From the NCBI GenBank assembly GCA_024711025.1, contig JANJTP010000039.1:62001-126000 (forward strand): DNA of 64,000 nucleotides, written 5' to 3'. The translations under genes were made by a program, and so were the position numbers. The stretch comes from Solirubrobacteraceae bacterium. GTDB lineage: Bacteria > Actinomycetota > Thermoleophilia > Solirubrobacterales > Solirubrobacteraceae. The notes below the pieces were generated by a model. That model ran no database searches and was not told where the DNA came from. It saw only the letters and a list, made by a program, of their open reading frames with translations. Numbering within the stretch: the first letter of the stretch is position 1; each line of letters begins with the position of its first letter. Shown here piece after piece: positions 13,017-45,085 of this stretch.

Positions 13017-14060
13017 TCAACGCTGCGGAGCCGGCCCGCAGCTCGCGCCGGGAGCGAAGGTCACGGGCAGCAGATCGCGAGGATCGCCGCCGAAGCGCAC
13101 CATCTCGAGAAGTATCTCCGCTGCGCGGCGGCCCATGCGGAAGGTGTCGCGATCGATCGTGGCGATCGGGGGCTGCAGGAACTCCGCAAGTGCCAGGTGG
13201 TCGCAGGTCACGAGCGAGAGCTGACCAGGAACCTCCAGGCCGCGGTCGCGGATGGTGCGCAGCACGCCGGTCAGGATCTGGTTGCCGCCGGCAATGATCG
13301 CCGTCGGCGCGTCATCGAGGTCGAGCAGCTCCCGGCTGGCGGTCCGACCGAACTCGGCGGTGAACGACTGGCAGCGCGGGATCGCCTCGACACCGCTTGC
13401 TGCGCAGGCCTCGAGCAGAGCTTGTGTGCGCGCGCGTGTGGGGCGAACGTCGAGCGAGCCTCCCACGAAGCCGATCCGCCGGTGGCCGAGCTCGGCGAGA
13501 TGGCTCACCGCCTGCTCGATCCCCGTCCGATGATCGGAGAGCACCGCCCCGAGGCCGTGGGCCTCGGGCAGCTCGCGATCGATCACCACGCAGGGAGCGT
13601 GGAAGCGCGAGAGTTCCTCGATCGTCGCGGTGTTCCGCTCGTTCGACACCGATAGCAAGAGCCCGTCGACCCTGCGCTGGTTCAGCAGGCGGATGTGCTC
13701 GACGTCGTGCTCGGACATGCCCCGCGAGTTGGTCACAAGCAACGAGTAGCCCGCTCCCTGCAGCGCCACCTCGGCACCGAGGACGATCTCGGAGAACAGC
13801 GGGTTCGAGATGTCGCCGACGACGAAGCCGATCGTCAGCGTTGCCCCGCGCCGCAGGCTTTGAGCGAGGAGATCCGGCTCGTAGCCCAGGTCGGCTACGG
13901 CCGTGAGCACCTTGTCCCGCATCCTGGGGCTGACGTCGGGGTGCTTGGAGAGGACCCGCGAAACCGATGAGACCGCGACGCCGGCACGCGCGGCAACCTG
14001 GCGCATGCTCGCCCTCGCGATCGGCGGCGATGCATCTCGCCGTTCGTCCCCCTCGTTCAT
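13017..14060 (-). CDS. LacI-family transcriptional regulator
   Basis: A 347-residue regulator. The helix-turn-helix is at about residues 19-40 (MRQVAARAGVAVSSVSRVL), followed by the hinge and a periplasmic-binding-protein-like sensor domain (TIGFVVGDISNPLFSEIV; HRRIGFVGGSLDVRPT). Such proteins usually repress carbohydrate catabolic genes and are relieved by a sugar-derived ligand. ATG at 14060 has GGAGGT 6 nt upstream. It lies 97 bp downstream of an enolase-superfamily gene on the same strand. LacI-type operators occur upstream of that gene and at two other promoters in the island, making this protein the obvious candidate regulator; the pairing is inferred. Confidence 0.92.
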   Translation of the reverse strand: MNEGDERRDASPPIARASMRQVAARAGVAVSSVSRVLSKHPDVSPRMRDKVLTAVADLGYEPDLLAQSLRRGATLTIGFVVGDISNPLFSEIVLGAEVALQGAGYSLLVTNSRGMSEHDVEHIRLLNQRRVDGLLLSVSNERNTATIEELSRFHAPCVVIDRELPEAHGLGAVLSDHRTGIEQAVSHLAELGHRRIGFVGGSLDVRPTRARTQALLEACAASGVEAIPRCQSFTAEFGRTASRELLDLDDAPTAIIAGGNQILTGVLRTIRDRGLEVPGQLSLVTCDHLALAEFLQPPIATIDRDTFRMGRRAAEILLEMVRFGGDPRDLLPVTFAPGASCGPAPQR

Positions 14061-14157
14061 TCTCCGACCTCCACAAGGCCTATGTACGCGGCGTCGTGAA
14101 GCTAGCAATCCGGTCCAGGTTCACGTGCCCGAGAGGCTTCGGAGCGAGCGCCTCGTC

Positions 14158-15312
14158 TCAGCGCAGCGCGTGGTCGACGCGATAGCGCTCGACGTAATCC
14201 TCATCGACCTCCCAGCCAAACCCAGGCCGGCTCGGAAGCTGAAGCTGGCCGTCCCTGAGCTTGGGGCGATTGGCTGGGAGGTTCCACCAGATCGGGTCAC
14301 GATCCGGGTGGAAGCACTCGACGAATGTCCCATGGGGGACCGATGCCAGCAGATGGCTGGCCACCTGCGGCTCCTCGTGGTGTGCCATCTCGACGTCGAA
14401 GGCCAGTGCCATCGCTGCGGCTCGGCGCCATTCCGTCGGCCCACCGGACCACGAGGCATCGAAGTTGCACACGTCGATCGCCCCCTCGACCATCAGGTCG
14501 CGACACCCTGCCGCAGACATCTCGCTCTGACCGGCGCAGACGGTGGTGCCCGTGAGGATGCGCACGTCGCGCATCGCCCGGCGATCGTTGCCCCAGCGGC
14601 AAGGCTCCTCGAGCCAACGCGGGTGGTGATCCTCGACCAGCCTCGCGAACCGCACAGCGTCTGAGAGCGCCCAACCCTGGTTGGCGTCGGCGCAGAGGAT
14701 GAAGTCCTCTCCGGCAACCTCGCGGGCTTGCGCAAAGCGCTTCGCGTCATCCTCAGGCGAGCGCCCGCCGACCTTGAACTTCATGCCGGCCATCCCCAGC
14801 TCGCGCAGCTGCTCGATCTCGTCGGGAATCTCCAAGTCGCCGTAGTAGCCGCCGATCGAGATCATCGGCAGCGACGATCGATAGCCGCCCCAGAGCCGCC
14901 AGAGCGGCTGCCCGAGAGCCTTACCGATCGCATCCCAGAGCGCCGAGTCGACGCAGGCCGATGCGACGAGGCCGAGGCGCCGGTCGCGCAAGATGTTGAA
15001 GGTCGCCGGGCGGGCCAGCTCCCAGCAGCGCTCGATGGCAAAGGCGTCCTGGCCGATCAGCGCGGGCGCGATCTCCTCCCGGATGATGGAGTCGATCTCG
15101 AACAGCGCATGGTCCTCGTCGCCGGCCCAGGCCTCGCCGACGATGCCCTCCTCGGTGTGGATCCTGCAGATGACCGTCGACCGATGGGTCATCTGATACT
15201 GACTGCCGCGATACACCTTGGGCAACGGCACGCGCAGCGGCACCGTCTCGACGGCGGCGATGGTCAGGGCACCCAAGCCCTGGCTTTCGGGTGATGTCGA
15301 ATTTCGACTCAC
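14158..15312 (-). CDS. Enolase-superfamily sugar-acid dehydratase-like protein (mandelate racemase subgroup)
   Basis: A 384-residue member of the mandelate racemase/muconate lactonizing group, whose acid-sugar members remove water after abstracting a proton alpha to a carboxylate. The KxK catalytic motif is intact (GMKFKVGG). Metal ligands are recognisable in LCADANQGW, WLEEPCRWG and CAGQSEMS, and a His-containing motif AHHEEP lies near the end of the barrel. GTG at 15312 has AAGGA 6-7 nt upstream. A tandem LacI-type operator lies just upstream of this ribosome site, and the LacI gene follows downstream, so the two probably form one autoregulated unit. The sugar acid is unknown. Confidence 0.88.
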   Translation of the reverse strand: MSRNSTSPESQGLGALTIAAVETVPLRVPLPKVYRGSQYQMTHRSTVICRIHTEEGIVGEAWAGDEDHALFEIDSIIREEIAPALIGQDAFAIERCWELARPATFNILRDRRLGLVASACVDSALWDAIGKALGQPLWRLWGGYRSSLPMISIGGYYGDLEIPDEIEQLRELGMAGMKFKVGGRSPEDDAKRFAQAREVAGEDFILCADANQGWALSDAVRFARLVEDHHPRWLEEPCRWGNDRRAMRDVRILTGTTVCAGQSEMSAAGCRDLMVEGAIDVCNFDASWSGGPTEWRRAAAMALAFDVEMAHHEEPQVASHLLASVPHGTFVECFHPDRDPIWWNLPANRPKLRDGQLQLPSRPGFGWEVDEDYVERYRVDHALR

Positions 15313-15329: not shown

Positions 15330-15355
15330 CAAAACCGATTCCGGGATCGTTTGCA
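15330..15355. promoter_or_regulatory. Tandem LacI-type operator upstream of the enolase-superfamily gene
   Basis: Two CG-centred half-matches to the LacI/GalR consensus TGnAAnCGnTTnCA lie side by side with centres 12 bp apart: CAAAACCGATTCCG (15330-15343) and CGGGATCGTTTGCA (15342-15355). The inner 20 bp (15333-15352) is itself an imperfect palindrome. The arrangement recurs at 42104-42129 with 21 of 26 bases identical over 15331-15356 and 42105-42130. It lies 17-43 nt upstream of the GTG at 15312, where a promoter is expected. Confidence 0.6.
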
Positions 15356-22348: not shown

Positions 22349-23095
22349 CTAGTCCATGTGGAGCCCGCCGTTCACATCCAGCTGGACGCCGTTGACGAAC
22401 GACGCCGCGGTGGATGAGAGAAAGACGATCACCGACGCGATCTCCTCCGGCTGGGCGCTGCGTCGAAGTGGGGTGGCGCCGATCGCGCTCGCAACCTCGG
22501 ACGGCGGGCGGTCCGCGATCATCGGGGTTTCGACCAGGCCCGGGCTGACGCAGTTGACGTTGATCCCGTGCGGACCCGCGTAGCGCGCGAGCGAACGCGT
22601 CAGACCGGCGACTGCCGCCTTCGATGTCGAGTACGACGCGCCGGCACTCAATCCGCCGGTGCGCCCCGCGACAGACCCGATGTTGACAATGCTGCCGGCC
22701 TGCCTGGGCACCATCGCGGCGAGAGCCGCCCTGGCGACCTGAAATGTCGTGGTGACGTTGGCCTCCTGGATGCGACGCCACTCATCGGCGCCCATGTCCG
22801 GCAATGCGGTGGCGTGGTAGACGCCCGCTGTGTTGACGACGATGTCGACGCGACCGAAGCGGGCCACCGCGGCGCCGATCAGCTCGTCGGCGACGCCATC
22901 TCGCGTGAGATCGTCGGCAAAGGCGACGGCCTGCGTGCCCGGGACCAAGCCGGCGACGGCGGCGAGTCGATCGGGAGCGAGATCGGCGAGGACGAGCCGA
23001 GCGTCCTCTTGAGCATACGCCCGTGCGCAGGCCGTCCCGATGCCGCCGGCGGCACCGGTGATCACAACGACGCTGTCAGTCAGGCCAAGATCCAT
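22349..23095 (-). CDS. Short-chain dehydrogenase/reductase
   Basis: A 248-residue classical SDR: TGAAGGIG cofactor loop, VNTAGVY, active-site serine in NIGSVAG, YSTSK catalytic pair and FVNGVQLDVNGG at the end. It is the first gene of an eight-gene leftward operon running to the E2 gene at 15439. ATG at 23095 gives the expected N-terminus but has no Shine-Dalgarno sequence. Instead a LacI-type operator sits directly against the start codon, so the message may be leaderless or the start may differ. It probably oxidises or reduces a sugar-derived alcohol. Confidence 0.88.
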   Translation of the reverse strand: MDLGLTDSVVVITGAAGGIGTACARAYAQEDARLVLADLAPDRLAAVAGLVPGTQAVAFADDLTRDGVADELIGAAVARFGRVDIVVNTAGVYHATALPDMGADEWRRIQEANVTTTFQVARAALAAMVPRQAGSIVNIGSVAGRTGGLSAGASYSTSKAAVAGLTRSLARYAGPHGINVNCVSPGLVETPMIADRPPSEVASAIGATPLRRSAQPEEIASVIVFLSSTAASFVNGVQLDVNGGLHMD

Positions 23096-23109
23096 TGGAA
23101 TCGTTGCCA
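23096..23109. promoter_or_regulatory. LacI-type operator next to the SDR start at 23095
   Basis: TGGAATCGTTGCCA matches the LacI/GalR consensus TGnAAnCGnTTnCA at all but one fixed position. It abuts the start codon of the minus-strand SDR. An overlapping inverted repeat ATCGTT-N6-AACGAT (23100-23117) is an alternative reading of the same dyad. A second, better operator lies 142 bp away at the other end of this divergent promoter. Confidence 0.5.
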
Positions 23110-23237
23110 GGAACGATATCGGCGGTTGCGTCACGAAGTCAAGCGATCCGGTCGCGGTAGGCGACGAGGAGCCGCGGCACAGCGACCAGGTCCCCGCCCG
23201 CAGGCTCACAAGCTCGCTTGACGACCCGAGGCCGATC

Positions 23238-23251
23238 TGGAACCGTTTCCA
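23238..23251. promoter_or_regulatory. LacI-type operator upstream of the metallo-beta-lactamase-fold gene
   Basis: TGGAACCGTTTCCA fits TGnAAnCGnTTnCA at every fixed position and is an imperfect palindrome (12 of 14 bases symmetric). It ends 2 nt before the ATG at 23254 in the divergent intergenic region. It shares the core GGrAyCGkTTsCA with sites at 15343 and 42117, and almost fully with 23097. Confidence 0.62.
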
Positions 23252-23253
23252 AC

Positions 23254-24207
23254 ATGGCGGTGATCACCCAGGTGGCAGACCGGACCTTCCGTGTCGAATC
23301 GACGCTCGGTCGGCGGCGTATCGCTCAATGGCTCGTGCTCGGCAGCGAGCGCATCGCGCTGATCGACACCGGCGTCGCCGGCATGATCGAGGGGCAGATC
23401 GTCGGCGCGCTGCGCGAGCTCGGCCACGACATCGGCGACGTGGCTGAGGTTCTCGTCTCCCACGCCGACGTCGACCACTACGGGGGCAATGCCGAGATCC
23501 GACGGCTCGCCCCCCGAGCGACGATCCGGTCCCACCCAAGCGACCGCCCGCTGATCGAGAGCTGGGCGACGATATTCGCGCAGCGCTACGGCTGGTATCG
23601 GCACTTCGGCCTCGACTACGACGCCGCGACGCACGCCTGGCTGCACGACGCGTCAGGCCCGGACGTACCACTGGACGGGACGATCGCGGCAGGCGATCGC
23701 GTCGAGCTCGGGGGGGTCGCGCTCGAGATCATCGACCTGCCTGGTCACTCCGCGGGACACCTGGGCTTCTGGCTTGAACGCGACCGCGTGCTGATCAGCG
23801 TCGACGCGGTGCTCGAGCGTGGGCTCTACGACATCGACGGGACGCTCATCAGCCCGCCACCGTACGTTACGGCGAGCGGCTACCGAACGACGCTCGACCG
23901 CGTCGCCGGCCTGGCTCCGTCGCGGCTCGAGACGGCGCACTACCCCGAGATCCGCGACGACGCGGTCGATGCTTTTGTCGACGCGTCGCGCCGCTTCGCA
24001 GACAGGCTGGAGGAGGTCATCGCCGGCCAGCTCGGTGACGACGCCCGCTCGATCGCCGAGCTGACCGCCGTGGCCGACCGCGAGCTCGGTCCCTTCTCGG
24101 AGATGAGCAACGAGCTCGCGCGATCGGTCGCCGCACACCTCGAAGACCTCGAGTGCCGCGGCCTGGCGCGATCGGTCGGCGATCAGCCGCGCTGGCTCGC
24201 TGCCTGA
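23254..24207 (+). CDS. Metallo-beta-lactamase-fold hydrolase
   Basis: A 317-residue MBL-fold protein. The metal motif reads SHADVDHYGG (HxDxDH, with Asp where the second His is usual), followed by the third-ligand region DLPGHSAGHLGF and a further Asp in ISVDAVLERG. A helical C-terminal domain of about 100 residues follows (RRFADRLEEVIAGQL), as in glyoxalase-II or LACTB2-like hydrolases. No partner gene is on this strand; it diverges from the SDR/E1-E2 operon and shares its regulated promoter. It may hydrolyse a lactone or thioester, but no specific role is visible. The start at 23254 lacks a ribosome site; a TTG at 23218 is the alternative. Confidence 0.85.
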   Translation: MAVITQVADRTFRVESTLGRRRIAQWLVLGSERIALIDTGVAGMIEGQIVGALRELGHDIGDVAEVLVSHADVDHYGGNAEIRRLAPRATIRSHPSDRPLIESWATIFAQRYGWYRHFGLDYDAATHAWLHDASGPDVPLDGTIAAGDRVELGGVALEIIDLPGHSAGHLGFWLERDRVLISVDAVLERGLYDIDGTLISPPPYVTASGYRTTLDRVAGLAPSRLETAHYPEIRDDAVDAFVDASRRFADRLEEVIAGQLGDDARSIAELTAVADRELGPFSEMSNELARSVAAHLEDLECRGLARSVGDQPRWLAA

Positions 24208-28848: not shown

Positions 28849-29607
28849 TCACAGCTGGGCCGTGGCGGGGCCCAGCACGAACTGACGATGGCGTGCCATG
28901 ATCTCCAACAGCACCGCGCGAGCACGATCGCCATCGCCAGCCTCGATCCGGTCGACGAGCTCGCGATGCGACTCGAGGCTGAACCGCAGATCGCCGACCT
29001 CGTGCGCGGCATGCTCGGAGCTAATCTCCATGCTCTCCTTGAGCAGCAGCGCGAACTGTTGCAGGGCCGCCAGGAGGAACGGGTTGTCCGCGGCCTGCGC
29101 GATCGCCAGGTGCATCTCCAGGTCGGCCTCCGCATAGGCGTGTGAGTCACCGACCGCCGACTCCATTCGCCCGAGCGCCTCGCGCATCCGTACGACGTGC
29201 TCGTCGCGCGCGCGCGATGCGGCCAGCGCGACCAGCGCGAGCTCGAGCACTTGGCGGGCCTCGATCGCCTGCTCAGTCTCCCGTCGACTACGCGGCTCGC
29301 GCAGCGCATGCAGGGCAAACGCCTCCGATGCCCCTTCGACGACGAACGTCCCCCGCCCGGCACGGACCTCGAGCAGGCCGGCGCTGGCAAGCATGCTTAT
29401 CGCCTCGCGCACCGAGCTCATCCCGACGGAGAAGCTCTCTGCGAGCTCGCGGTGGCCCGGCAGCTTCCCGCGCAGGCGCCCCTCGATGATCTCGGTGCGC
29501 AGCTGCTCGGCGATGCGCTCGGAGAGGTTCGTGCGGCGCATCGGCTTCCACAGGGGCGTTGCAGCCGACGTCTCGGCTGCCTGCTCGGACGGAATCGAAG
29601 TGCTCAT
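28849..29607 (-). CDS. FadR-type GntR transcriptional regulator
   Basis: A 252-residue GntR regulator with an FCD domain. The winged helix is at about residues 30-90 (LPGHRELAESFSVGMSSVREAISML, then RAGRGTFV). The FCD part holds the metal-coordinating Asp/His pattern (ADLEMHLAIAQAADN; SLESHRELVDRIEAGD). Such proteins control sugar-acid and carboxylate catabolism, often responding to a pathway intermediate. It follows the SDR at 29650 by 42 bp on the same strand and is probably the last gene of the 34.3-28.8 kb operon. ATG at 29607 lacks a clear ribosome site; TTG at 29619 is an alternative. Confidence 0.88.
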   Translation of the reverse strand: MSTSIPSEQAAETSAATPLWKPMRRTNLSERIAEQLRTEIIEGRLRGKLPGHRELAESFSVGMSSVREAISMLASAGLLEVRAGRGTFVVEGASEAFALHALREPRSRRETEQAIEARQVLELALVALAASRARDEHVVRMREALGRMESAVGDSHAYAEADLEMHLAIAQAADNPFLLAALQQFALLLKESMEISSEHAAHEVGDLRFSLESHRELVDRIEAGDGDRARAVLLEIMARHRQFVLGPATAQL

Positions 29608-29649
29608 GGCGGTTGGCAAGGAAGGGTGATCTCGGTTGGGCGGGCCGGC

Positions 29650-30420: not shown

Positions 30421-31559
30421 TCTTCGCTCCTGTCCATGACGTCTTCCCTCCACTCGATACGCCCGCGCGCCGCGTCAAGATCCTCGGCACCGTGCAGCAG
30501 CCGTAGCCGCAGGTCGTACTCGCGGCTCTCCCCCGGCTCGAGGACCACCAGTCGGCCCGCCTCACGCGCCGCTTGGCGGCCGTCCAGCTCGAGGTTCCCC
30601 GGCTCGAGCCCGACGACGTAGTGACCCTCGTTCATCACCCGCCATTGAAAGAGGCGCGGCGTCGCCGCAAGGTCGAACGCAACCTCGAGTCCCGCGGCGC
30701 GGCCGTCGCCGATATCCGCGTTGAGCACCGCCGCACGTCCAAGCCCGTCAGCGGCCGTCCGCGGCGAGTGCTCCCAGACCTGCTCCGCGACCCCACGACT
30801 CGGGGCCGTGACCCGGCGCCAGTCGACTCCCTCGGCCTCGACAGTCGCCCGCCGCGGCTCGCCGACCGCGGCGGCGACGATGGCGCCCGGCGCCAGAATC
30901 GGCCAGCCCACGTTGACGTGATAGAGGATCATGTGCGGTGTCGGAGCGAAGCCGTCATTGCGCACGCGGTCCCGGACGCGGATCTCGCGCGCGCCGACCT
31001 CGGCCTCGATTCGACGCTCGAGTGTGAGGACCTCACCGAAGACGTTTGCCTGGCGCACGTCCCCTGCGACGTAGACGACGGGGCTCGGGGCGTCGAGATC
31101 GAGGCCGTACGCGGTCAGTCGCGCCGGCGTCGTCGAGAGGCGGCCGTGAAGCGGGAAGTGCTCGGTCTTCCTTCCCGGGTAGTTGAAGTAGGAGACGTCA
31201 TCCTCGGCCGGCCCCAGCGTGTGCTCCAGGCCGCAGGTCGTCATCAGCCCGCCGAAGAACGTCCGGAAGGGGTTCCACCCATGCGGATCAGCGAACCAGG
31301 GTGCCGCGATCCCGGTCGGCGACATCCATGCGATCGGAATGCCGCGCACGTGTGCCTGACCGATGTCGAGCGCCCGCTCGACGATGACCTCGAACTCGAT
31401 CTCGCCGGTCCGCAGGCGGACGAAGCGCGTTCCCCGCTCCGACCCATCGTCGCGGCGCAGCAGCTCGGCGCCCATGAGCTGCTCGGGTCGACCGGCGACA
31501 CGCCGCAGCGCTTCACGGTCGAGCCCCGTGGCAAACGAGCGCTTAGCGCAACCGCTCAC
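30417..31559 (-). CDS. DUF4432 family protein (aldose 1-epimerase-like fold)
   Basis: A 380-residue protein matching the DUF4432 group, a beta-sandwich family related to galactose mutarotases. Recognisable segments are WMSPTGIAAPWFADPHGWNPFRTFFGG, of which the tryptophan/glycine-rich part is most telling, then TTCGLEHTLG, EHFPLHGRLS and ILYHVNVGWP. The His and Glu residues in these correspond to the sugar-binding face. It may mutarotate or epimerise the imported sugar. GTG at 31559 overlaps the upstream SDR stop as GTGA. No enzymatic activity of the family is established firmly enough to name one. Confidence 0.8.
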   Translation of the reverse strand: MSGCAKRSFATGLDREALRRVAGRPEQLMGAELLRRDDGSERGTRFVRLRTGEIEFEVIVERALDIGQAHVRGIPIAWMSPTGIAAPWFADPHGWNPFRTFFGGLMTTCGLEHTLGPAEDDVSYFNYPGRKTEHFPLHGRLSTTPARLTAYGLDLDAPSPVVYVAGDVRQANVFGEVLTLERRIEAEVGAREIRVRDRVRNDGFAPTPHMILYHVNVGWPILAPGAIVAAAVGEPRRATVEAEGVDWRRVTAPSRGVAEQVWEHSPRTAADGLGRAAVLNADIGDGRAAGLEVAFDLAATPRLFQWRVMNEGHYVVGLEPGNLELDGRQAAREAGRLVVLEPGESREYDLRLRLLHGAEDLDAARGRIEWREDVMDRSED

Positions 31560-41414: not shown

Positions 41415-42041
41415 ATGAGCGCTGGTGACTGCGCGCTGGTGACGGCCGCCGGCCACGGAGTCGGGCGTGCGTGCGCCGAGGCGCTGCGCGACGAGTCGAT
41501 CGATCTGTACCTGGTCGATGCCGACCACAACCGGGTGGAGGCGGCCGCGGAGCGACTGGACGCGCACGCGATCACATCCACGCTCGCGGACGCAGGCGAG
41601 GCCGAGAGCTGCGTCGCCACGGTCCTCACGGCGCGATCTCGGCTCGACATCCTCGTGCACGTCCTGGCGACGCCGGCCGCCATATCGCTTGCGGACGTCT
41701 CGGCGCGAGAGTGGCGCGAGCAGGTCGAGGCGCCCCTGGCGGTGACGCTGTTCCTCAGCCGTGCGGCGCTACGAGCGATGAGCGTGAGGCCCGGCGGACA
41801 GGTGCTCCTGGTTGCGCCTTGGGCAGCCGTCGATGGACCAGCGGCGGGCCCGCTCGTGACTGTCGTCGACACCGCCCTGCACGCACTGACACGCGAGCTC
41901 GCCCCACTCGCGGACGAGCTCGAGGCCACGCTGCGGCTCGTGACCCCGCACGGCCTCGAGCCGTGCTCGAGCGACGCGAACCGGGCATCGACACCAGCCG
42001 AGGCAGCGGTCATCAGCGCGCTGCTCGCGACGACCGCTTGA
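41415..42041 (+). CDS. Short SDR-like protein without catalytic residues
   Basis: A 208-residue protein with SDR architecture but no catalytic motifs. The start (CALVTAAGHGVGRACAEAL) resembles the cofactor loop, with Ala for the first Gly. The NNAG region reads VHVLATPA, the catalytic Ser position is Ala (LLVAPWAA), and the YxxxK position reads VTVVD. It also stops about 40 residues short of a normal SDR, without the VDGG end. ATG at 41415 has GGGGGA nearby. It could be a pseudoenzyme partner or a decaying copy; codon use stays like the neighbours and the frame is open. Confidence 0.7.
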   Translation: MSAGDCALVTAAGHGVGRACAEALRDESIDLYLVDADHNRVEAAAERLDAHAITSTLADAGEAESCVATVLTARSRLDILVHVLATPAAISLADVSAREWREQVEAPLAVTLFLSRAALRAMSVRPGGQVLLVAPWAAVDGPAAGPLVTVVDTALHALTRELAPLADELEATLRLVTPHGLEPCSSDANRASTPAEAAVISALLATTA

Positions 42042-42166
42042 GGCACCGCGACAGCAGGTGATGGCAATTGCATGTGGATCGCCGGGGGCAATAGCATGAG
42101 TCCTGAAACCGATCCCGGAACCGGTTGCAGGCGCAGCAAAGTAGCTCGCAGCGAAGAAAGGAAGAC
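42042..42166. promoter_or_regulatory. Promoter region of the 42.2-44.3 kb operon
   Basis: Noncoding stretch after the SDR-like gene. It contains an 8-bp palindrome GCAATTGC (42064-42071) and then the tandem LacI-type operator at 42104-42129. The first ribosome site of the operon (AAAGGA) follows at about 42157. Together with the small ORF below, this accounts for the roughly 355 bp between recognisable SDR genes. Confidence 0.45.
42104..42129. promoter_or_regulatory. Tandem LacI-type operator upstream of the SDR/enolase operon
   Basis: TGAAACCGATCCCG (42104-42117) and CGGAACCGGTTGCA (42116-42129) are two overlapping matches to TGnAAnCGnTTnCA with CG centres 12 bp apart, the same geometry as at 15330-15355. 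AACCG...CGGTT at 42107-42126 is a 20-bp imperfect palindrome (16 of 20 symmetric). It sits about 38 nt upstream of the first start codon of the operon. Confidence 0.65.
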
Positions 42167-42400
42167 GTGACCGAAACTGCCTCACACGGACATCTCGAAA
42201 GGCCTGGCTCAGCCGCCTGCCCAAGCGGCGCGCACTCGCCGCCCGAGCTGCGCCGGTCGCTCGCGGCCGCGACCGATGACCACCCGTACGATGTCGAGGC
42301 AGCCCGGCTCGAGTGCCTGCTCGACATGGCAGATCCCTCACCGGCTCGTGCGCGCGCGAGCACTCGAGGTCCCTCACCGCGCGCAAGGAGGCCATCGTGA
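42167..42400 (+). CDS. Small hypothetical protein, translationally coupled to the following SDR
   Basis: A possible 77-residue protein of unknown function. GTG at 42167 has AAAGGA 4 nt upstream, and the stop overlaps the GTG of the next gene as GTGA, the coupling style used throughout this island. The middle segment (HPYDVEAARLECLLDMAD) could be helical; the tail is Ala/Arg/Pro/Ser-rich and low in complexity. No signal peptide or membrane segment is seen. It could be a real small protein, a leader ORF that sets translation of the SDR, or chance coding. I do not recognise it. Confidence 0.42.
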   Translation: MTETASHGHLERPGSAACPSGAHSPPELRRSLAAATDDHPYDVEAARLECLLDMADPSPARARASTRGPSPRARRPS

Positions 42401-43155
42401 CGCACCGCGCGGGAGCCGTAGCCGTGATCGGCGGTGGCGGGGGCATCGGGCAGGCGATCGCCCGAAGGCTCGTCGCAGAAGGGCGGCCGGTTGCGATCAT
42501 CGACGTCGACGGCGACGCGGCGGCCCGTAGCGCCATCCTCGCCGGAGCATCTGCGCGGGCGATCACGCTCGACGGCAGGGACGAGAGAGCCTTCGCCTCT
42601 GCGCTCGACGCCGCGATCTCCGAGCTCGGCGCGATCTCGGGCCTCGTGAACGCACAGGGCATGACGCTCGCCCGCCAGGCGCTCGATATGACCGACGACG
42701 AGTTTCGCTCGGTGCTCGACGTCAATCTCGTCAGCGTCTTCAGCGCCTCGCGCGCGGCGGCCGCGCGAATGGGCGCCGGCGGCGCGATCGTCAACATCTC
42801 CTCGATCGCCGCACGCACGCCGAACATGAGCCGAGCCGCCTACGCGGCGAGCAAGGCCGGCGTCGAGGGACTGACCCGCGCCCTGGCATTCGAGTGGGCA
42901 GCGCGCGGAATTCGCGTGGCGGCGATCGCGGCCGGCTACACGGACACGCCGTTCATTCGCCATGCCATCGCCGACGGCTTCCTCGAGCAACGGCAGGTCG
43001 AGGCGCGCACCCCGCTCGGCCGGATGGCGCAGCCGGCGCAGATCGCCAGCGTCGCATCCTTCCTGCTCGGGCCCGATGCGTCGTACATCACCGGCGCCGT
43101 GGTCGATGCCGACGGCGGCTGGCTCGTTCAGGGCTTGGGGCTCCCCGGCTCATGA
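42397..43155 (+). CDS. Short-chain dehydrogenase/reductase
   Basis: A 252-residue SDR. The cofactor loop is GGGGGIGQAIA, the NNAG position reads VNAQGM, the serine lies in NISSIAA, YAASK is intact, and YITGAVVDADGGW ends the fold. GTG at 42397 has AAGGAGG 5 nt upstream. Its stop overlaps the enolase-superfamily start as ATGA. The operon is preceded by a tandem LacI-type operator, so it likely belongs to the regulon of the 13-kb LacI protein. The substrate is probably a sugar or sugar acid. Confidence 0.9.
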   Translation: MTHRAGAVAVIGGGGGIGQAIARRLVAEGRPVAIIDVDGDAAARSAILAGASARAITLDGRDERAFASALDAAISELGAISGLVNAQGMTLARQALDMTDDEFRSVLDVNLVSVFSASRAAAARMGAGGAIVNISSIAARTPNMSRAAYAASKAGVEGLTRALAFEWAARGIRVAAIAAGYTDTPFIRHAIADGFLEQRQVEARTPLGRMAQPAQIASVASFLLGPDASYITGAVVDADGGWLVQGLGLPGS

Positions 43156-44276
43156 CCGCACTTGACCCGATCGACCGGATCGACGCTCTCGAGCTCACGG
43201 TGCCGCTCGCTGACCCACTGCGACTGGGGCCGCTCACGATCACCAAGCGCCGCTACGCCGTCGTACGCGTACACACGCACGACGGGCTCACGGGAATCGC
43301 CTATGCACTGACGCGCGACGCCCCCGTGACCCAGGCCGTGGCGATGCTTGCGCCGCTGCTACGCGGTCGTGACGCAGATCTCATCGCCGCACGCCACCAC
43401 GACTGCGTGCGCGCGACCGCCGCCGCCGGTCGCGTCGGCGTCGTCATGCGCGCGATCGCACTTGTCGACATCGCCCTCTGGGACATCAAGGCCCAGCGCG
43501 CCGGGCTGCCGCTCTGGCGACTGCTCGGCGGCGCTCAGCGCGAGACGCAGCTGATGCTGGTGGCCGGCTACCCCCGGGACGATCTCGCGCCGGAGGCGCT
43601 GGCCGAGCGCGTCGCCGCTTACGCCCACGACGGCCACGGTCTTCTCAAGATCGCTCGGGCTCACGACCAGAGCCGGATGCGCACGATCCTCGACAGGCTC
43701 ACATCGAGCTCGCTCCCGCCGACCGCCCGGCTCGTCATCGACTGCGCCTGGTGCTACGAGAGCGTCGGCGATGCCGAACATGAAATCGCCGCGTGGCCCG
43801 ACGTCCCGTTGGAGTGGCTGGAGGACCCGATGCCGCCCGAGGACGTCCGGGCGATCGTACGATTGCGGGAGCGCCTCGGCGTCCCGCTCGGCGTGGGAGA
43901 CGAGCTCAGCGACCCGAACACGCATCGCGAGCTGGTGCGCTGCGGTGCGGTCGACGTTCTGCGCGTCGACGTCGCCAACCTGGGAGTGACGGGCGCGCTG
44001 CACGTCTGCGCGCTCGCCGCAGCCGAGCGCGTGCCCGTGTCTTTCCACGTCTACCCGGAGATCGCCGTCCACCTGGCGGCCGCCATGACGCAGCGCGCGA
44101 TCGTCGAGAGCTTCGACCCCCTGGACAACCCGTTCGACCCGACGCACAGCTTCGTCCGCGGCGGCCCCGTGATCGAACCCGGCGTCGCGCTTGCCCCCGA
44201 GCTGCCCGGCCTCGGCTTCTCGATCGACGAAGAGCGACTGACGGCCCTGGGATGCGGCGCCGTGAGCGATCCGTGA
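43152..44276 (+). CDS. Enolase-superfamily protein with altered KxK motif
   Basis: A 374-residue enolase-superfamily protein of the mandelate racemase group. Metal ligands are present in VIDCAWCY, WLEDPMP and GVGDELSD, and the distal His in VSFHVYPE with Asp in LRVDVANLG. The motif normally KxK reads LLKIAR, so the second Lys, the usual acid/base on that strand, is Ala. It may therefore use only the His/Asp dyad, as some dehydratases do, or be impaired. ATG at 43152 overlaps the SDR stop. It ends 23 bp before a convergent GntR gene. Confidence 0.87.
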   Translation: MTALDPIDRIDALELTVPLADPLRLGPLTITKRRYAVVRVHTHDGLTGIAYALTRDAPVTQAVAMLAPLLRGRDADLIAARHHDCVRATAAAGRVGVVMRAIALVDIALWDIKAQRAGLPLWRLLGGAQRETQLMLVAGYPRDDLAPEALAERVAAYAHDGHGLLKIARAHDQSRMRTILDRLTSSSLPPTARLVIDCAWCYESVGDAEHEIAAWPDVPLEWLEDPMPPEDVRAIVRLRERLGVPLGVGDELSDPNTHRELVRCGAVDVLRVDVANLGVTGALHVCALAAAERVPVSFHVYPEIAVHLAAAMTQRAIVESFDPLDNPFDPTHSFVRGGPVIEPGVALAPELPGLGFSIDEERLTALGCGAVSDP

Positions 44277-44299: not shown

Positions 44300-45085
44300 T
44301 CACCCCTCCACCAGCTCGGCCCAGACCAGCGGGGCGTCAGCGGCGCGGCCGCCCTCCTGCTCGAGCAGCAGGAGGGCCGTGCTGACGAGGTGGGCCTTCA
44401 TCGCCGCTCCGGCGGCGGCCGGATCGCGCGCGCGCAGCGCGGCGAGGATCGCCTCGTGCTCGGCGACGATCGCCTCCAGTGAGCGGCTGCGGCCGGCGGT
44501 CGATACGCCGCTGGTGACGACAAGGTCGCGCAGTGAGTCGACGTAGTCGGCGAGCCGCTGGTTGCCCGACGCCTCGTTGACCGCGCGATGGAAGAGCCGG
44601 TCGTGGCGCATCGTCAGCGGCTCGTCGCCCGCGGTGGCCGCGGTGGCCATCGCCATCAGCTCACGCTCGAGCGCACGGTCGACCGGCGGTGTCGCGAGCT
44701 GCGCGGCGCGGCGCGCGGCCGGCACCTCGAGCAGCAGCCGCAGCGCGAGGATCTCCTCGAGCCCGTGGATCGAGGTCTGCAGGATCCGCACTCCGCGGTT
44801 GCGCTCGAAGCGCACCATGCCCGTGCGCGCGAGGTCGATCAGCGCCTCGCGGACAGGGGTGCGAGAGACCCCGAAGGCGTCGGCGAGACGCTGGACCGAG
44901 TGCAGGGCCCCCGGCGCGAGGTCGCCGTCGATGATCGCCGAGCGGACGGCCTCGCGGACCTGCTCGGTGATGCTGCGATCCGGCCTGATCTCCCTGAACG
45001 ACGCGCCGCTCACCGACTCCTCGCTGCTGATCGATTGCTCACGCGAGACGCGCACCGAGCGCCGCGCTCCCACGCCCGCCGTCAC
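44300..45085 (-). CDS. GntR-family regulator (FadR/FCD type)
   Basis: A 261-residue regulator. After a 35-residue leader, the winged helix runs over about 40-100 (LHSVQRLADAFGVSRTPVREAL, of which SVSRTPVREAL-type residues are the recognition helix) and an FCD ligand domain follows (HDRLFHRAVNEASGNQR; EHEAILAALRARD). It is last in a leftward operon with a TIM barrel, aminotransferase and thiamine-diphosphate enzyme, which it may control. GTG at 45085 lies 9 nt after the stop of the damaged oxidoreductase gene; no strong ribosome site is visible. Confidence 0.88.
   Translation of the reverse strand: MTAGVGARRSVRVSREQSISSEESVSGASFREIRPDRSITEQVREAVRSAIIDGDLAPGALHSVQRLADAFGVSRTPVREALIDLARTGMVRFERNRGVRILQTSIHGLEEILALRLLLEVPAARRAAQLATPPVDRALERELMAMATAATAGDEPLTMRHDRLFHRAVNEASGNQRLADYVDSLRDLVVTSGVSTAGRSRSLEAIVAEHEAILAALRARDPAAAGAAMKAHLVSTALLLLEQEGGRAADAPLVWAELVEG

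Follow-up and report, generated by a model that had tools for sequence, protein, structure and literature searches.

Tandem LacI-type operators with a 12-bp spacing near putative sugar-acid catabolic genes of a Solirubrobacteraceae bacterium and around the genes of LacI orthologs

We have analyzed a stretch of 64,000 nucleotides (hereafter the window, 70.6% GC) from the 3.14 Mb genome, in 72 contigs, of a Solirubrobacteraceae bacterium. The genes near the operators described here form a cluster of the sugar-acid type, with dehydratase-like genes of the enolase superfamily, short-chain dehydrogenases, E1/E2 oxo-acid dehydrogenase genes and an ABC transporter, and the regulators encoded in it are two of the GntR/FCD type (28849-29619 and 44300-45085) and one of the LacI family. 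In a comparison of ten cluster proteins with NCBIfam none reached the cut-off of any listed family. The features that concern us are listed below, and the consensus matches given refer to the repeated 12-bp unit GGAANCGNTTCC, which was derived from the promoters of LacI orthologs.

13017-14060, minus strand: LacI-family repressor gene (PF00356 and PF13377), proposed reader of the operators
14158-15312, minus strand: MRa, enolase-superfamily gene, sugar-acid dehydratase-like (PF13378 and PF02746; below every listed NCBIfam cut-off)
15331-15354, no strand assigned: tandem operator, AAAACCGATTCC (15331-15342) and GGGATCGTTTGC (15343-15354), 8/10 and 8/10 matches
22349-23095, minus strand: short-chain dehydrogenase gene (PF13561), behind the 23097 operator
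23097-23120, no strand assigned: tandem operator, GGAATCGTTGCC (23097-23108) and the weaker AGGAACGATATC (23109-23120), 9/10 and 6/10 matches, spacing 12
23239-23250, no strand assigned: single perfect unit, GGAACCGTTTCC, 10/10 matches, without a listed 12-bp partner, 3 bp before the ATG at 23254
23254-24207, plus strand: metallo-beta-lactamase-fold gene (PF00753), behind the 23239 unit
42105-42128, no strand assigned: tandem operator, GAAACCGATCCC (42105-42116) and GGAACCGGTTGC (42117-42128), 8/10 and 9/10 matches
42397-43155, plus strand: short-chain dehydrogenase gene (PF13561), downstream of the 42105 operator
43152-44276, plus strand: enolase-superfamily dehydratase-like gene (PF13378 and PF02746), overlapping the end of the short-chain dehydrogenase gene

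MRa is located upstream of lacI on the same strand, and the two possibly form one operon. For the start of lacI we chose an ATG by eye; the frame itself opens at 14108.

The initial annotation had described two loci, at 42104-42129 (TGAAACCGATCCCGGAACCGGTTGCA) and 15330-15355 (CAAAACCGATTCCGGGATCGTTTGCA), each with two CG-centred LacI-type units whose centres are exactly 12 bp apart and whose 14-mers overlap by 2 bp, and we found precisely this geometry at both. The identity between the two 26-mers, given there as 21 of 26 bases, came to 20 of 26 on recounting. Both are imperfect palindromes, the one at 42104 in 20 of its 26 bases (10 of 13 pairs) and the one at 15330 in 16 of 26 (8 of 13 pairs). 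The contrast that had been drawn with "single" sites at 23 kb does not hold, as the 23097 unit is paired at +12 and only the one at 23239 is single.

Regarding their positions, the 15331 operator sits 18 bp before the start codon of MRa, and a -10-like TAGACT (15360-15355, minus strand) directly adjoins it. The 23097 operator is 1 bp from the ATG of the short-chain dehydrogenase gene 22349-23095. From the 42105 operator there are 38 bp to the GTG at 42167 of a short open frame and 268 bp to the start of the short-chain dehydrogenase gene at 42397, and a sigma-70 scan of 41950-42450 found nothing. This short frame (region 42125-42400), located between the operator and the dehydrogenase gene, has a stop that overlaps the start of the latter; its GTG is preceded by a purine-rich stretch. 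The frame is a candidate small protein or leader. In the region 23093-23256, where the operators are 1 and 3 bp from the ATGs of divergent genes, no ribosome-binding site was obvious by eye, and leaderless transcripts are possible.

A 20-bp composite made from the 42105 and 15331 sites was used as a search pattern. In the window, allowing up to 3 mismatches, it gave 7 matches for 1.18 expected, a number reached by 1 of 100 shuffles. Over the whole genome, with up to 2 mismatches, there were 2 forward and 3 reverse matches, at both sites and one other place. The composite alone is weak evidence, because the same pattern read backwards, our control, had 5 and 4 matches in the same genome, thus equalling or exceeding it, and as an uninformative pattern it was dropped. 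An exact scan of 151 genomes, the own one included, matched in 3 of them, the own genome and two others.

We have examined the spacing in a sample of 17 loci, the window plus 16 loci around LacI orthologs (47-56% identity), counting as a pair any two units that together reach 15 or more of 20 matches, with no fewer than 6 for either unit. At 12 bp we found 30 pairs vs. 0-7 at each other spacing from 7 to 40, and 12 Markov-resampled versions of all the loci gave 1-5 pairs at 12 bp. When CG was required in both units, 23 pairs remained at 12 bp, 3 at 11, none at 13 and 14, and 0-4 at the remaining spacings from 8 to 40. In the same way, 26 of the 47 strong units (at least 9/10 matches) had a partner of at least 6/10 at 12 bp to either side, and at each spacing from 13 to 40 this number was 0-6 (in this count the window was represented by 12001-46000). 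The matches at 13 bp in these core loci, six in all, are 12-bp arrays read one base off. This peak in the relatives strongly supports the 12-bp tandem pattern, and the arrangement that had been noticed at two promoters of the window is conserved in other genomes as well.

At least one 12-bp pair was present in 12 of the 17 loci, and one with CG in both units in 10, although these loci are not independent, since L053-L055 come from one genus, L045/L046 and L049/L052 are two loci from each of two genera, L050 and L051 belong to one genome and L037/L038 are near copies (labels with L denote loci). In the other 5 of the 17 loci no 12-bp pair was found at the threshold. The sole 12-bp pair of L036 and of L048 has one unit without CG, and so has a fourth window pair at threshold, at 31253, which judging from its sequence is probably due to chance. 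Pairs at 11 bp with CG in both units appeared in L049, L055 (this one inside a gene) and L064. Besides, L046 carries at 454-489 a triple array with 12-bp pitch (GGTAACGTACCC GGAAACGTTTCC GGGTGCGATTCC), and a second, weaker triple array was found in L055.

We have also scanned all 256 CG-centred arms. Over all sequence GGAA was not among the top entries listed, owing to the high scores that CG-rich arms reach wherever the spacing is a multiple of 3. In masked non-coding sequence GGAA at 12 bp topped all the arms that do not themselves contain CG, with a mask that was crude, 14 of the 30 pairs being called coding since frames were extended to the longest start. Arms of the same composition, taken as controls, gave at 12 bp 11 pairs (GAGA), 0 (AGGA), 3 (AAGG), 21 (GAAG) and 1 (AGAG).

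Outside this core we applied the same pair test to a distant set of 11 loci, in which LacI is at most 47% identical, and obtained 3 pairs at 12 bp and 6 at 13, of which four have a CG in each unit; the line between the two sets is arbitrary, with L056-L058 (46-47% identity and the same helix motif) counted as distant and L051 (47%) as core. Two of these loci (L058:13175 and L061:6927), from two genomes of one genus with LacI proteins only 44-47% identical, hold 12-bp pairs, GAAACCGATCCCGGGATCGTTGTC and a near reverse complement of it, that are very like the one at 42105. In L059 (8159) and L062 (5583, the same as L023 1443) there are good CG-centred pairs at 13 bp, with one spacer base, and therefore the spacing may differ between related LacI groups, as far as the sequences indicate.

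The idea of 12 bp as a general LacI rule in the class was discarded after a survey of 49 LacI upstream regions (37 of 40 places plus 13 other loci minus one duplicate, the three places left out being the window's own lacI and two core orthologs). At the lower threshold 12 bp, with 6 pairs, was equalled by 33 bp, also with 6, and 27 bp had 5; at the higher thresholds there were 1 and 0 pairs at 12 bp and 2 at 14 bp. The convincing 12-bp cases are GCAA-type operators (L029, L032 and L086). L033 and L035 have upstream of lacI 14-bp tandem operators of the GCAAGCGCTTGC type, and many of the 49 surveyed regions gave no pair.

As to the protein that reads the operators, the LacI encoded at 13017-14060 has the recognition helix SSVSR and the hinge LAQSLRRG, a hinge that we take to be LacI-like. 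The SSVSR helix is shared by all 20 aligned orthologs, the window included, and the relatives in L036-L038, from three named actinobacterial draft genomes, are 48-55% identical. The units have the central CG and inverted half-sites of LacI-family operators, with CG in both units in 23 of the 30 pairs, and the lacI gene with its conserved helix is linked to them. Perfect copies of the unit are found in L036, L045, L046, L048, L050, L053 and L055, and once in the window (23239). Of the 16 ortholog loci, 10 contain a homolog of MRa besides lacI (55-76% identity over the aligned parts). In L053 and L055, of one genus, a TAGGCT directly adjoins a 12-bp pair at the promoter of MRa, comparable to the TAGACT of the window. 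One other LacI gene was detected in the own genome at the threshold used (contig C23, L070); upstream of it there are two CCAAAACGCTTTGG sites 36 bp apart. On the grounds of this linkage and co-occurrence of the motif we assign the operators to the cluster LacI, of which GGAANCGNTTCC is probably the operator.

How two units so close together could be bound is the point missing from the first reading, since the two inner DNA-binding domains would, in complexes of the canonical LacI type, have to contend for almost identical bases. We have compared the half-sites in 26 of the 30 pairs, leaving out four in which one unit has no CG (L048 8138, L054 5588, L036 2869 and window 31253) but retaining three other pairs of which the same is true. 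The inner half-sites averaged 4.13 consensus matches of 5 vs. 3.88 for the outer ones (4.10 vs. 3.87 in all 30 pairs and 4.11 vs. 3.91 in the 23 whose units both contain CG), and no difference was significant; these half-site tests and the strength tests were repeated on both of the latter sets with the same outcome. Unit scores were unequal in 29 of the 30 pairs, and in 23 of them the weaker unit had 6-7/10 (the floor of the threshold is 6). Within a pair the units resemble each other about as much as they resemble those of other pairs (26 of the 30 were compared), with the exception of base 5, identical between paired units in 11 of 26 vs. 7.0 expected, and recent duplication is thus unlikely as the source of the spacing.

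That a weak unit should be maintained at so precise a distance is understandable if its partner assists in its binding. This favours two LacI dimers sitting side by side cooperatively, which would explain both the weak partner and the exact distance, and of the two options offered in the initial annotation, two dimers or one extended 20-bp palindrome, the former is the one that we retain, given the equal half-sites, the isolated perfect units and the triple arrays. We thus picture the cluster LacI as controlling the surrounding sugar-acid catabolic genes, with two dimers that would occupy the 26-mer together, cooperatively, at a fixed 12-bp pitch. The 15331 pair lies between the -10-like hexamer and the start codon and the 23-kb operators are 1-3 bp from start codons, positions from which a bound repressor would block transcription, and a ligand, probably a sugar acid, would release the repressor and allow transcription. 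We infer in this way that this LacI reads the operators, that the two dimers are bound simultaneously and that they act by repression, and the whole model of tandem GGAANCGNTTCC pairs read by the 13017-14060 LacI as cooperative, repressing dimers with a 12-bp pitch is, from the sequences, somewhat on the probable side in our judgement. More tentatively, and with rather less confidence, we suggest that the dimers might pack every 12 bp, up to three of them, sharing one major-groove turn on bent or unwound DNA, and that such an array might be the normal repressing complex.

The alternative that survives best, although we consider it unlikely, is that the two units are alternative registers, bound by one dimer at a time, the second unit only raising the local affinity or slowing escape. 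The crowding of inner half-sites in the known complexes, as described in the relevant passages of Ravcheev et al. (PMC4052901), speaks for it, yet alternative registers need no single spacing, and 12 bp is far above 11, 13 and 14; besides, the weak partners of 23 of the 30 pairs would contribute little occupancy. Clearly less probable is a single dimer reading an extended palindrome of 24-26 bp, be it LacI binding in an atypical way or a different factor, for instance one of the GntR/FCD regulators. The 26-mers are palindromic about their midpoint and both GntR/FCD genes are nearby, but perfect units occur isolated in the window and in relatives, L046 has the triple array, and the bases at the midpoint vary (CG in 14, CA in 9, TG in 2 and AG in 1 of 26 pairs). 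Reading of such a palindrome at its ends only is also unlikely because inner and outer half-sites are similarly conserved, and a factor other than LacI is at odds with a motif that was discovered via lacI orthologs.

Slightly more doubtful again is a CytR-like protein with flexible headpieces, in which a single LacI dimer would use half-sites whose distance may vary and which may belong to different units. According to the passages of PMC3454398 on its sites, CytR recognizes direct repeats as well as inverted repeats with spacers of 10-13 bp. It is the best NCBIfam match of our LacI, but far under the cut-off (183 vs. 436 bits), and the spacing fixed at 12 bp rather than relaxed, the perfect CG-centred units and the hinge LAQSLRRG all go against this reading. 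Finally, chance or tandem duplication in high-GC sequence is very improbable, since, although for some motifs codon periodicity raises the counts at spacings that are multiples of 3 and GAAG, one of the five control arms, reached 21 pairs at 12 bp, GAAG is high throughout coding sequence (mean of 7.3 pairs per spacing) and the other four arms gave 0-11, GGAA had its 30 pairs at 12 bp and none at 15, 21 and 30 (1-5 in resampled loci at 12 bp), and the units are not near-identical copies.

The favoured arrangement of side-by-side dimers poses a packing problem, 12 bp being less than the distance that two such proteins are supposed to need. The passages of the 2014 report (PMC4052901) that deal with close sites give no structural explanation, and one published elsewhere may have escaped our search. 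The present ortholog group, with 12 bp fixed at many promoters, is a clean test system with one type of protein, and it offers single, double and triple operators together with natural spacing variants, 11 bp within the group and 13 and 14 bp in other LacI groups.

Among known systems the closest is the class described by Ravcheev et al. (2014; PMC4052901), whose passages on site spacing report peaks between LacI-family sites at 13, 22 and 32 bp and overlapping sites about 13 bp apart before 110 operons, gntKU among them. According to the same passages, known structures imply strongly overlapping contacts for two dimers at such a distance of about 13 bp, and a binding mode with partly unwound DNA was proposed. 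As in that class, to judge from those passages, there are here two overlapping or abutting palindromes before catabolic operons, conserved in some ortholog groups and with an unexplained mechanism, our pairs being two sites upstream of one operon conserved among orthologs (30 pairs, 12 of 17 loci). The difference lies in the sharp 12 bp (no pairs with CG in both units at 13 bp vs. 23 at 12 bp in the 17 loci), in the dehydratase-linked LacI group and in the triple arrays, compared with the 13-bp peak given there. At gntKU of E. coli K-12, where GntR binds the operators according to PMC4052901, there are likewise two CG-type palindromic 12-mers in tandem, but we measured 13 bp from start to start, with one spacer base, and the half-site sequence and the regulator are others.

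CytR, as presented in the parts of PMC3454398 cited here, is also a LacI-family protein with unusual half-site arrangements and differs in its variable spacing and its partnership with CRP; our LacI scored under the curated CytR cut-off, and its sharp 12-bp peak contrasts with a relaxed half-site spacing. The actinobacterial operators of the MalR/AcrC type are LacI-family repeats too, inverted and direct, but with the half-site CTTGCAG, and the passages of PMC5526262 on these operators state no 12-bp rule. Close tandem LacI-family sites were therefore already known (PMC4052901), and what is new is an ortholog group that keeps sharply to 12 bp and in which triple arrays occasionally appear.
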